Source of the DNA: Brevibacterium linens ATCC 9172
GTDB taxonomy: Bacteria; Actinomycetota; Actinomycetes; Actinomycetales; Brevibacteriaceae
Assembly: GCF_900169165.1 (NCBI RefSeq)
Contig: NZ_FXYY01000006.1
Coordinates: 1 to 64,000 of the forward strand
Reading direction: 5' to 3'
Length of the DNA stretch: 64,000 nt
A program made the translations under genes and the position numbers. Below are positions 42,480 to 46,300 of the stretch, piece by piece. Every line of letters starts with the position of its first letter. Within the stretch, counting starts at the first letter, position 1. Below the pieces are notes generated by a model, which was not told the origin of the DNA, did no database searches, and saw only the letters and a list, made by a program, of their open reading frames with translations.

Positions 42480-43928
42480 TCAGTCCTCGAGGGCGCGGTC
42501 CTGCCGCTCGGCGCGCAGCGCGGCCGTGCTGAAGCGGGTGAACATCCGGGAGGAGTCGCTCGACAGCGCCAGCAGCACCGCCACCTGCATGGCGATCGTC
42601 GTCAGCGCATACATATTCGTCGCCAGGTCGCGATCGCCGGTGAAGTAGTTCGTCATCGACACGATCACGGAGATCGTCGAGAGAGTGAGGATCCACAGCC
42701 TCGCTCGGTTGCTGCCGCGGAACACCGACGTCGAGGCGATGACCTGCAGACACCCGATGTGGAGGCTGAGACCGACGAGGAATCCCGCGACGATGCGCGT
42801 GGCCGTGTCGTCGCTGACGGCCGCGATGTCCGAGCTGTAGTCGACGACTTCAGACCGCAGCCCGTTCCAGTCGAGGAGCATGCTGATCACATCCCACGCC
42901 TGGAAGAGCAGCAGAACGAGCACGAGGGCGGCCCCGACGACCGTCTGCAGGGGGCGCTGTCGCCACAGCGTCTTCGTCACTTCGGACACGCTGTGTGAAT
43001 CGGAGTAGATGCGGGTGGCGTCGAGGGCCAACTCCAAGCGTTCGGGGTGGTCGGCTTCGTCGGCGACCACCTCGGTGACGTCGACGATCGGCAGGTGCCC
43101 GTCGGTGATGATCGCATCGCCGCCGCCGTTGCGGGAGTGGTATCCGGTGGAGAAGTCCTTGATCCGATCGACCGAGATCACCTCGTCGGCACCGGTGACA
43201 GTGTCGACGATGTGGTCGCGTTCGACGTCGGTGTTCTCTTCGATCTTGTGGGTGAACTGGAGGGTGAACAGGGAGATGCCGACGGCTTTGTCATAGGTTC
43301 CGGCGGCCAGCCAATCGGCCTGGTGTCCGCCGGGCAGCAGCCATCCGTGCGGGCATTTCCAGAACCGCACGTGGTGACGCTGTCCCGGATCGCCGTCGAC
43401 TTCCTGCTGGTAGGCGAAGTCGTGACGGCGGCCGAAGAGCAGCAGCGGGGACACCGGCGCCTGCGGGTAGCTGCGCTTCGTCACCGTCGAGCGGATGATC
43501 TCCCACGTCGATGCGGGAGTGATGCTGTCAGCAAGGGTACACCCTGCTTCGCGCATCGCATGGTGGATCTGCGCTTCCTCACCGCGCCAGGCAAGGTTGA
43601 CCGGATCGCCGAGCAGACCGTCGGAGGTGCGGGTGCGGCCGATGAAGTAGTTCGGCACATAGATCTGGGACAGAATGCGGTGCAGCCGGGGCAGAGCCAG
43701 GTAGGACACGACTGCCCAGAACACGAGCAGCGTGAGCACCTGCCACCAGCCGAGGCTGAATCCTTTGAGCAGGATGAGCAGTGCCAGCCAGGTCGAGGCC
43801 GCGCCGGCGAAGAGGAAGAACAGGTAGTCGAGCACCCCGGTGGGCGTGAAGTGGTGTCGTCGATAGACGAACGGCTGCCTCAGCCGCCGCTTCTGCCCGA
43901 CCGCCGCGTCCGTTCCGCCCGAAGTCAT
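42480..43928 (-). CDS. LssY_C-domain membrane protein
   Basis: A 482-residue protein. Two N-terminal helices (about 30-80) precede the LssY_C domain: DPVNLAWRG, HHAMREAGCTLADSITPAS, RSYPQAPVSPLLLFGRRHDFAYQQ and RHHVRFWKCP (about 95-210). After a soluble portion, four further hydrophobic segments occur between about 335 and 465. The LssY_C domain was first noted with type I secretion genes of Legionella, and is also fused to PAP2 phosphatases; its role is unsettled. No secretion ABC transporter is adjacent here. TTG 43946, with AGAGG next to it, is an alternative start. Confidence 0.78.
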   Translation of the reverse strand: MTSGGTDAAVGQKRRLRQPFVYRRHHFTPTGVLDYLFFLFAGAASTWLALLILLKGFSLGWWQVLTLLVFWAVVSYLALPRLHRILSQIYVPNYFIGRTRTSDGLLGDPVNLAWRGEEAQIHHAMREAGCTLADSITPASTWEIIRSTVTKRSYPQAPVSPLLLFGRRHDFAYQQEVDGDPGQRHHVRFWKCPHGWLLPGGHQADWLAAGTYDKAVGISLFTLQFTHKIEENTDVERDHIVDTVTGADEVISVDRIKDFSTGYHSRNGGGDAIITDGHLPIVDVTEVVADEADHPERLELALDATRIYSDSHSVSEVTKTLWRQRPLQTVVGAALVLVLLLFQAWDVISMLLDWNGLRSEVVDYSSDIAAVSDDTATRIVAGFLVGLSLHIGCLQVIASTSVFRGSNRARLWILTLSTISVIVSMTNYFTGDRDLATNMYALTTIAMQVAVLLALSSDSSRMFTRFSTAALRAERQDRALED

Positions 43929-43980
43929 GGGCGTCAGTTTAGCCAACCTCTTCCAGCGCCCGGACTGCGGATTCCCGCCG

Positions 43981-44116: not shown

Positions 44117-45160
44117 TCACCGTCGCCGGCGCTCGAGGGCGGCACGTGCGGTGGCCGCGAGTTCCGGACTGTCGTCATTGCTGAGCTCGGCGATGAGTTC
44201 GTCGCTGCGGTCGCCGGAGATTTCGAGGAGGACTTGGAGCACACGGAACCGTGTAGCCGTCTCGCTCGAGTCCGCGTGCCGGTGCAGTTCGGTGAAGACC
44301 CGTTCGCTCATGTCGGCTCTCGGCCCGGCCGCGTCGACGATGGAGCCGATTGCCTCTGCCGCCTCGATGTCCTTCGGTCCGTTCATCGCCATGTCGAGCA
44401 GCACGGGCACAGCCTTCGCATCACCTGAGCGACCGAGGGCGAGCGCGGCGATGCTGCGGATGTCGGGGACGGCATCGTCGAGTGCGAGTTCCAGGGCCTG
44501 CTGGATCATCGACGTCGAGCGTGAGTCGAGTTCCTCGTCCGGTGTGGTTCGGCGGATCTCGTCGAGGGTGAGCAGTGCGTTGCGGCGCACTTGGGCCGAT
44601 GCGTCGTCCATTCCGACAACCACATGGGGCACGGCCTCGGCGCCGGCTTGGGCAAGTGCCCACCGCATAGCCCCAGCCGCGTTGAGCACGGTCTCCTGCA
44701 GGACCGCCTGCGAAAGGGCCTCGATCGGCATTCCTCCGTCGACTCCGCTGCCGAGTGCGGCCTTGTGCCGTTGGATGACATCGCCGGATTCGAGGGAGCG
44801 CATGAGGTCGATGGTGTACAGGAGCGATTCGCCATCGGTCCGGCCGAGCCGAGCGACGGACTCGAGGTGGTCGAGCAGTCGCTGCTCGGCCGCAATCCGC
44901 TCACGTGCCTGGTCGATGAGGTCCCCGAGCACGCTGCCGGGGTCGAAGTCCGGCTCGGACAGCACCCGCCCCACTTCGCTCAGAGACATCCCGAGTCTGC
45001 GCAGACCCTCGATATGGAAGATTCGACCGATATCGGCATCGGAGTATTCGCGGTAGCCGCCGGTCGTCCGCTGGCTGGGCGCGACGAGTCCCAAGGATTC
45101 GTAGTGGCGCAGCATGCGTGCGCTTACACCGGAGCGCCGGGCCACCTCGCCGATGAGCAT
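44117..45160 (-). CDS. MerR-family regulator fused to HEAT repeats
   Basis: A 347-residue regulator starting MLIGEVARRSGVSARMLRHYE. Residues 1-70 are a MerR winged helix-turn-helix (GGYREYSDADI, FIEGLRRLGMSLSEV-type follow) and residues 75-110 a coiled coil. The rest (about 130-347) is built of HEAT-like helical pairs, for example SAQVRRNALLTLDEIR, PDIRSIAALALGRSGD and SPELAATARAALERRR. MerR sensors usually bear a ligand pocket; here HEAT repeats replace it. The adjacent upstream gene is a separate HEAT protein behind a MerR-type operator, so a regulator and its target are implied. AGAGG precedes the ATG. Confidence 0.85.
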   Translation of the reverse strand: MLIGEVARRSGVSARMLRHYESLGLVAPSQRTTGGYREYSDADIGRIFHIEGLRRLGMSLSEVGRVLSEPDFDPGSVLGDLIDQARERIAAEQRLLDHLESVARLGRTDGESLLYTIDLMRSLESGDVIQRHKAALGSGVDGGMPIEALSQAVLQETVLNAAGAMRWALAQAGAEAVPHVVVGMDDASAQVRRNALLTLDEIRRTTPDEELDSRSTSMIQQALELALDDAVPDIRSIAALALGRSGDAKAVPVLLDMAMNGPKDIEAAEAIGSIVDAAGPRADMSERVFTELHRHADSSETATRFRVLQVLLEISGDRSDELIAELSNDDSPELAATARAALERRRR

Positions 45161-45396
45161 TGCCACCTCTTCTCTGCTGTCAGCCACTCTATGCCGCAGT
45201 CGCGGCCCTCCGGGTGCAGTGTCCCGAAATTCGTCGGTGCCGGGGGACCGTTCGGACGTCGCTCACCGTTCGCAGGCGGTTTTCGCACAGGTGCTAGAAC
45301 CACCCACTGAAGGAAGGGATCCGAGACCTCGGCCGTGTGCCGACGGGCTTGCCCCACCTGACGGCACACGCACGATCGGACCTTCCCTGTGCCGAT

Positions 45397-46206
45397 CTAG
45401 ACCGCGGTCTCGGACCCCAGTGCGACCAACCGCTTGGCTGCGTCCAAGGCGTGGGCGAAGCCGGCATCCGGGTCATCGAACATGTCCCGGGTCGCCATGG
45501 CGTGAGCCCGCACTGTGTCGTCCTCTGCATGAAGCCTCTCATCGACCACTGACACGAGGTCCTCACCGAGGGCCACGATCGCTCGACTGAGGCTCTTCTG
45601 CACCTCGACTTCACCGCGTCCCAGCTGTGTCACCAGGGCGGATGCCAGTTCTGCGCGATTGTCACCGGGGACAAGGGCAACGGCGGCTCTCCACGCACTG
45701 CGGGCCACCTCGGTGTCGGTGTGGGCGATGAGGGCCGCGCCGATCCGGGCCGGGTCCATGGCCGGCCAGGCACGGACGTCGCCGATCTTCGACAGGGTGT
45801 GCAGGGATTGGCTGATCGCCTGCGGCAGCGGCGAGTCGAGTTCGGCGATGAGGCGGGGAACGGTGTCGTCGGCAGGCAGCCGAGTGAGCGCCCAGGTGAC
45901 CATGTCGCGGGCGAAGAAGTCCGGTTCGATGCGGCACCGGGCGATGACCACGTCGAGGTCACGGGGTTCGGCCCGTGTGCCGATGGCCATCGCCGCCTGC
46001 AGGCGCTTCTGCGGGTTCGACGCACTCAGCGCGTCGATCATGGGATCGCCGGTATCGTCCCGAAGGCTTCCGGTGTCGTTCTGAACGTCGCCGGCGCCTT
46101 TCCGAAGGTTTTCGGTGTCGTTCCGAACGTCGCCGCCGGTCTGTTGGTCAGCCTCGGTCGGGGGTTCCGGTCCGCGAGTCTGATGGTGCCCCAGTGGATG
46201 TGTCAT
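45397..46206 (-). CDS. HEAT-repeat protein
   Basis: A 269-residue protein of HEAT-like helical repeats (about 55-260), for example NPQKRLQAAMAIG, FARDMVTWALTRL, PQAISQSLHTLSKIGD and TEVARSAWRAAVALV. The N-terminus is low-complexity with a duplicated element: DVRNDTENLRKGAG and DVQNDTGSLRDDTG. There is no signal peptide. ATG 46206 is chosen since ATG 46245 lies inside the probable MerR operator. The MerR-HEAT gene lies 236 bases downstream on the same strand; a GTGTGCCG/CGGCACAC inverted repeat separates them (near 45340). A target protein recognised through HEAT surfaces is plausible but not shown. Confidence 0.8.
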   Translation of the reverse strand: MTHPLGHHQTRGPEPPTEADQQTGGDVRNDTENLRKGAGDVQNDTGSLRDDTGDPMIDALSASNPQKRLQAAMAIGTRAEPRDLDVVIARCRIEPDFFARDMVTWALTRLPADDTVPRLIAELDSPLPQAISQSLHTLSKIGDVRAWPAMDPARIGAALIAHTDTEVARSAWRAAVALVPGDNRAELASALVTQLGRGEVEVQKSLSRAIVALGEDLVSVVDERLHAEDDTVRAHAMATRDMFDDPDAGFAHALDAAKRLVALGSETAV

Positions 46207-46234
46207 GGTCTCAAGCTTCTTGTCACCCAGTGAA

Positions 46235-46257
46235 GACCCTGACATCGTGTCAAGGTC
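46235..46257 (-). promoter_or_regulatory. MerR-type operator/promoter upstream of HEAT gene
   Basis: GACCCTGACA (46235-46244) and TGTCAAGGTC (46248-46257) form a 10-base near-perfect inverted repeat (one mismatch) around a three-base spacer. Read on the minus strand it overlaps a TTGACC -35-like hexamer, the arrangement expected for MerR proteins that activate from between -35 and -10. The adjacent MerR-HEAT regulator is the natural candidate. Confidence 0.65.
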
Positions 46258-46300
46258 AAGGAGGCTGGACTCGCTTCCTTCTCATCCTCAGTGCGGAGCC

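Follow-up and report, generated by a model that had tools for sequence, protein, structure and literature searches.

A MerR-type regulator with a HEAT-repeat sensor and a free HEAT-repeat protein are encoded next to each other in the window (the whole 64,000-nucleotide stretch of Brevibacterium linens DNA that was analyzed), behind a conserved promoter that carries a palindromic operator. We propose that the pair is a self-contained, autoregulated two-gene module, in which a HEAT sensor activates a HEAT effector that shares its ligand, in a TipA-like manner; we put the probability of this reading at about 0.58. The parts belong to known families; what appears new, as judged from listed titles and abstract starts, is the combination of a MerR protein with a HEAT sensor, a free HEAT protein, and an operator of its own.

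Results

The first gene of the pair encodes the free HEAT-repeat protein (269 amino acids; window positions 45,397–46,206, minus strand), which has a HEAT solenoid from about residue 51. The second encodes the MerR-HEAT regulator (347 amino acids; 44,117–45,160, minus strand), which consists of a winged helix-turn-helix (HTH, residues ~1–70), a long helix (74–103), and a HEAT solenoid (~108–347). Both starts were set by relatives: 45,160 (MLIGEVARR) rather than 45,187 for the regulator, and 46,206 (MTHPL) rather than 46,245 for the HEAT gene, the ATG at 46,245 lying within the operator palindrome. Pfam searches matched MerR_1 (2.7e-17, above its cut-off) and HEAT_2 (5.8e-9) in the one regulator protein, and HEAT_2 (2.9e-7) in the free HEAT protein. 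With the gene starts corrected, these matches bear out the original prediction that a MerR regulator with a HEAT part adjoins a free HEAT protein, and that the HEAT domain occupies the usual position of the MerR sensor. The ribosome-binding site of the HEAT gene (46,210–46,221, minus strand) is degenerate in the window, reading AAGAAGCTTGAG as against AAGGAGGTGGAG in near relatives. Downstream of the pair is a gene encoding an LssY_C-domain protein (42,480–43,946, minus strand); in one genome (G014), the regulator is without its start and runs into the frame of this neighbor, and its HEAT gene is broken across two frames.

AlphaFold2 modeled residues 51–269 of the free protein with a pLDDT of 92.7 and a pTM of 0.87, and the regulator with a pLDDT of 91.5 and a pTM of 0.71. 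In the regulator model, which is of a monomer, helix 74–103 follows the HTH at the position of the dimerization helix of MerR activators. Fold comparison matched the DNA-binding part to MtaN (1jbg; Z 14.0, rmsd 2.9 over 105 residues) and TipAL (2vz4; Z 13.4, rmsd 3.4 over 99 residues), and by sequence TipA was the best PDB MerR match to the regulator (9.4e-19). The C-terminal part, modeled as a helical solenoid, showed no TipAS-type antibiotic-binding domain; HEAT families matched it instead, and no TipAS family did at E up to 0.1. For both solenoids, fold comparison returned general HEAT/armadillo solenoids.

The putative operator, the palindrome GACCTTGACACGATGTCAGGGTC (46,235–46,257, minus strand), is located ahead of both genes, exactly between a −35 element, TTGACC (46,259–46,254), and a −10 element, TTCACT (46,234–46,229), and the promoter as a whole (46,229–46,259, minus strand) forms a conserved block. 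Spacers of 19–20 bp are typical of MerR promoters, according to passages of a review of the family (PMC9909328), and the arrangement found here, TTGACC-N19-TTCACT with the palindrome in the 19-bp spacer, is that of a MerR-activated promoter. The site had been predicted to be a near-perfect MerR operator. It stood up as a conserved operator site but not as a near-perfect one: its arms agree at 9 of 11 positions (scored on the identical site of locus L113), which makes the palindrome good rather than perfect. The string is unique within the 64-kb window.

Each of the 30 loci scanned in the genus carries the operator once, with no more than four mismatches, followed in most cases by an AGGAGGT-like ribosome-binding site and an ATG. 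The operator was also present, at 16 or more of 22 bases, in 78 of 80 actinobacterial loci from many genera; the exceptions are a Frankia locus (L143), whose score of 14 falls inside the null, and L165, which has none. The null, consisting of the best scores in 1275 random stretches from the same loci, ranged from 9 to 15 except for three stretches at 18–21, which may overlap real operator sites. Over 66 non-Brevibacterium sites, the conserved block spans the −35 to the −10 region and then fades, with TTGAC at −35 in 63 and TTCACT in 49 of them. Within the genus, the operator (≤3 mismatches) was found in 36/57 genomes versus 1/57 for the reversed pattern, more than expected by chance.

As judged by co-occurrence, the operator tracks the regulator, not the HEAT gene. 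At three or fewer mismatches, the site was present in 36/43 genomes of the genus sample with MerR-HEAT versus 0/14 without it, and, in a chosen set of 34 genomes with the HEAT gene, in 18/26 with the regulator versus 0/8 without it; the genomes in these counts are related, and the counts describe association rather than binding. They uphold the predicted MerR-type operator as real, conserved, and following the regulator. The seven regulator genomes missed in the genus sample are one in which the contig is cut (G012) and six divergent members, in which a site of 16–19/22 lies close to the start of the HEAT gene (26 nt inside its estimated start in L101). Both arms are altered together, to CCTCACA/TGTGAGG, in L097, L100, and L101. 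One genome without the regulator (G288) has a degraded-looking site (16/22). A single close site (≤3 mismatches) was found in 34/36 operator-bearing genomes of the genus and in 16/18 of the chosen set, so the module seems to be mainly self-regulating; on the former count, a larger regulon was rejected as the main reading, although weaker targets may lie beyond the limit of three mismatches. Extra matches to the operator pattern occur in G005, G016, and G271, and in L231 (G163:C52) a short HEAT fragment is preceded by a second copy of the operator.

The two genes are linked. MerR-HEAT lies directly downstream of the HEAT gene, on the same strand, in 78 of the 80 loci fetched by HEAT alignment (all but L143 and L165); its gene is cut by a contig end in L147 and L156 and spread over two frames in L178. 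These loci are the best 80 of at least 584 HEAT relatives, a choice that favors close relatives. A class sample of 296 genomes yielded the HEAT gene in 57 (E 1e-15) and the regulator in 47 (E 1e-50), and all 47 regulator genomes also carry the HEAT gene on the same contig and strand, with the matched parts no more than 255 nt apart. The original prediction would have been refuted had the pair not been conserved as neighbors; on these two counts (78/80 and 47/47), the genes are conserved neighbors. In the genus sample of 57, the HEAT gene gave matches in 45 genomes (a fragment alone in G037 and G050) and the regulator in 43 (E 1e-30). The HEAT gene occurs without the regulator in 10 of the 57 HEAT-bearing class genomes, one of which (G279), an assembly of 1310 contigs, may be incomplete; the HEAT protein thus seems to work alone there.

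The pair and its strongly conserved promoter were found in Streptomyces, Nocardia, Amycolatopsis, Micromonospora, and Brevibacterium. Outside Brevibacterium, the two genes meet or overlap to within 14 nt in 63/65 pairs when starts are called mechanically, and in 13 Brevibacterium loci 142–235 nt lie between the two genes; in another member of the genus (G054, locus L097), the gap is ~1.3 kb and holds one or more extra open reading frames (ORFs). Neighbor families were built from mechanical ORFs of at least 110 amino acids by blastp at 1e-20, with out-of-frame ORFs over the pair excluded, and none is conserved outside Brevibacterium. The widest, MFS-type transporters by eye, occurs within ~5 kb in 8/67 loci (L140, L141, L151, L161, L172, L180, L181, and L186), on both strands and at varied distances. 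Since the widest family among the non-Brevibacterium loci is this narrow and scattered, a conserved biosynthetic or resistance neighborhood was rejected.

Several HEAT genes stand apart from this arrangement. Three very small genomes (1.3–1.4 Mb; L223, L224, and L225) have the HEAT gene without the regulator; its neighbors encode a DinB-family protein in L223 and a 3-dmu-9_3-mt-family (PF06983) protein and a DUF1801 protein in L225, with L224 similar by eye. The neighbors in L223 and L225 would fit detoxification, though the cases are few. In L165, a metagenome-assembled genome labeled Gammaproteobacteria, an ORF encoding an HTH_17 domain precedes the HEAT gene, and the locus has no MerR-HEAT match besides the HEAT repeats themselves. 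The Frankia gene (L143), also without a MerR-HEAT match, is flanked by what we take, from the look of the letters, to be a Clp N-domain-like ORF and a pyridoxamine-phosphate-oxidase-like ORF.

A structured RNA element seen in the Brevibacterium group (45,294–45,401, minus strand) follows the HEAT stop codon, in the gap before the regulator gene. It has two covarying stems, a GGGGCAAGC loop, and a possible pseudoknot. Across 16 sequences, two-sided changes occur in 14 of the 26 proposed pairs, giving a covariation score of 0.319 versus at most 0.128 with the partners slid; the structure was drawn from the window's own copy, and relatedness among the sequences lifts such scores. The pseudoknot helix (loop GGAAGG with CCTTCC) is proposed from conservation, with no two-sided change, and the lowest-energy fold of the window copy pairs these two strands and not the first stem. 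A covariance model built from the 16 sequences, some of them from genomes that it then matched, gave one strong match in each of 38/57 genus genomes, namely, in 37 of the 43 with the regulator and in G050, which has a HEAT fragment and no regulator match. In G050 the element persists beside the fragment (L109:1746-1856), with AGGGCAAGC instead of GGGGCAAGC in the loop. Weak second matches appeared in G023 (7e-4) and G009 (0.002). In the class sample, the window's genome alone gave a strong match; G324 gave a weak one (3.1e-4), and G019, the other genus genome of that sample, gave none. A known RNA family was rejected, as no Rfam row reached its gathering score: the rows returned (miRNA, SAM-Chlorobi, and snoRNA) fell below it, those of one search lying outside the element and two of another not being placed against it. 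A scan found no intrinsic terminator. The role of the element may be to terminate or process the HEAT message, or it may control the gene that follows.

Ahead of the regulator gene, a candidate −10 element, TAGAGT (45,186–45,191, minus strand; TATAGT in many relatives), lies ~25 nt from the start, and TAnAnTG columns are conserved in the alignment; a sigma-70 scan found no promoter-like site ahead of this gene. The TATAGT-like element hints at a separate promoter for the regulator in Brevibacterium, and given the gaps of 142–235 nt, the regulator may be off the regulated transcript there.

The HEAT domain of the regulator is probably a divergent copy of the free HEAT protein. By hhalign, the sensor domain and the free protein align from start to start (probability 95%, E 3.2e-8), with lower scores in other registers (2.2e-6 and 4.5e-4). 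When 20 genomes were searched with the sensor domain, the partner was the best non-self match in 12 (weakly in two of them, at 0.003 and 0.008), another HEAT protein scored best in 3, and no non-self match was found at E 0.01 in 5, including the window's own genome. HEAT repeats resemble one another, so paralogy is probable rather than proved.

The two solenoids differ in conservation. Polar or aromatic residues of the free protein that are kept in at least 90% of rows number 27/89 in the B helices (the second helix of each repeat, assigned by order in the model) versus 6/85 in the other helices (p 8e-5); by HEAT convention, we take the second-helix set to be the concave side. Those on one helix set include R18, R50, D51, W55, R59, H86, K90, R119, W122, R123, R158, R183, and H185. 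The HEAT part of the regulator has fewer such residues (9/96 versus 1/93), and the mean frequency of the commonest residue is 73% in the free protein versus 62% in the sensor, over slightly different row sets. For most of the charged residues conserved in the free protein, no conserved equivalent is listed for the sensor domain; this may reflect different ligands or an enzymatic role and counts against a module with a shared ligand.

The head of the free HEAT protein had been noted to hold a duplicated NDTxxLR element. The duplication is present: NDTxxLR occurs twice, within a ~42-nt repeat at 81% identity (46,046–46,129, minus strand). An importance of the repeat is not supported, as only the window's head has two copies among 38 distinct Brevibacterium-group heads, which are 9 to 73 residues long, and one other head has a single copy. 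NDTxxLR was therefore rejected as a functional motif; it is a lineage-specific linker repeat.

Discussion

Comparison across genomes shows that the parts of the proposed module are present and linked, that the operator goes with the regulator, and that there is one main close site; operator binding, activation, a shared ligand, and a protective role are what we infer. In this mechanism, a MerR-HEAT dimer would bind the palindrome in the promoter spacer, and uptake of a ligand by its HEAT solenoid would distort the promoter in the MerR fashion and thereby activate it. Activation would turn on the free HEAT protein, plus the regulator itself where the genes abut. The free HEAT protein would then bind the same or a related ligand in its conserved groove and titrate, neutralize, or process it, as TipAS does beside TipAL.

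TipAL/TipAS is a thiostrepton-induced MerR system of Streptomyces. Passages of PMC7762955 describe TipA as a minimal autoregulated multidrug-resistance system, in which a sensor, an activator, and a neutralizer come from one gene via two translation products. Our pair resembles it in the MerR DNA-binding domain, in the autoregulation proposed here, and possibly in a free form of the sensor made alongside, for which the probable paralogue in the adjacent gene is the candidate; it differs in that the sensor is a HEAT solenoid rather than the TipAS fold, and this candidate free form is encoded by a separate upstream gene. By analogy, the module would work like TipA at most. BmrR, Mta, SkgA, and CueR share with the regulator the N-terminal winged HTH, the dimer helix, and an operator in an over-long spacer, and differ from it in the C-terminal domain. 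The bacterial HEAT proteins CpcE and NblB, which act in phycobilisome chemistry, have HEAT repeats and gave weak profile matches, but they are not known to have a MerR partner.

The sensor had been suggested to read a protein or large ligand, as it may, and the free HEAT protein to be a rival or delivery factor, which is plausible. The genomes with the HEAT gene alone suggest that this protein is an effector able to stand alone, and by analogy with TipAS and TipAL we favor a partner that shares the sensor's ancestry and is the module's own target. An unlikely alternative is protein-protein feedback, in which the free HEAT protein switches the regulator off by binding to its HEAT domain or to the MerR-HEAT dimer, so that the signal of a homeostatic loop is a protein partner of the solenoid. 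The adjacent genes and their probable shared ancestry would fit such a loop, as would the top structural matches, which include protein-binding solenoids such as alphaReps; however, alphaReps are a generic match for HEAT solenoids, and a HEAT gene without its regulator in 10/57 HEAT-bearing class genomes (G279 perhaps incomplete) speaks against it. Slightly less likely still, the free HEAT protein acts as an enzyme or binds nucleic acid, for which AlkD-like repair is a precedent, and the corresponding damage or metabolite is what MerR-HEAT senses. This would agree with the many conserved Arg, Lys, His, Asp, and Trp residues on one helix set and with the better conservation of the free protein; against it, HEAT_2 is the sole Pfam match of the solenoid at E up to 1. 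That search gave no row for DNA_alkylation, the domain of AlkD-type HEAT DNA glycosylases. Neither AlkD nor another glycosylase was among the fold matches listed, an absence that excludes nothing. That the operator belongs to another MerR protein, with MerR-HEAT a passenger gene, is very improbable: the genome has other MerR-like proteins (five weaker matches) and the operator is of a general MerR type, but the site was absent from all genomes of both samples that lack MerR-HEAT (0/14 and 0/8, ≤3 mismatches) and looks degraded in the regulator-less G288. PADLOC matches (MerR-like mad1, 2.1e-9; HEAT-ARM_XIII, 2.1e-6; DruH, 0.0077) were read as generic domain matches, and anti-phage defense was rejected.

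Among the titles and abstract starts listed by literature searches, mostly outside the subscription journals, none described a MerR protein with a HEAT sensor that is paired with a free HEAT protein behind an operator of its own. By term search, the word HEAT is absent from the main text of the MerR review cited above (PMC9909328), and passages of PMC11272600 speak of HEAT repeats and, in a separate place, of a MerR-like protein; PMC3482391 contains both words, HEAT and MerR. More tentatively than the TipA-like module itself, and with odds that we would place below even, the pair may represent a class of minimal autoregulated sensor-effector modules that is widely conserved among actinobacteria and has gone undescribed. 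In it, a HEAT solenoid would take the place of the MerR ligand pocket, the same compound would be captured or processed by a free solenoid that arose by duplication, and, in Brevibacterium, a new structured RNA would have been added between the two genes to set their ratio.

With one close site and a promoter strongly conserved across the genera named above, the module probably answers a common signal, and having one operator and one target makes its inducer directly testable with a reporter. Collectively, the conserved pair and its promoter DNA suggest an uncharacterized, self-contained sensing or protection module; if the TipA-like reading is true, it would give the MerR family a new sensor fold and the TipA principle a second design.
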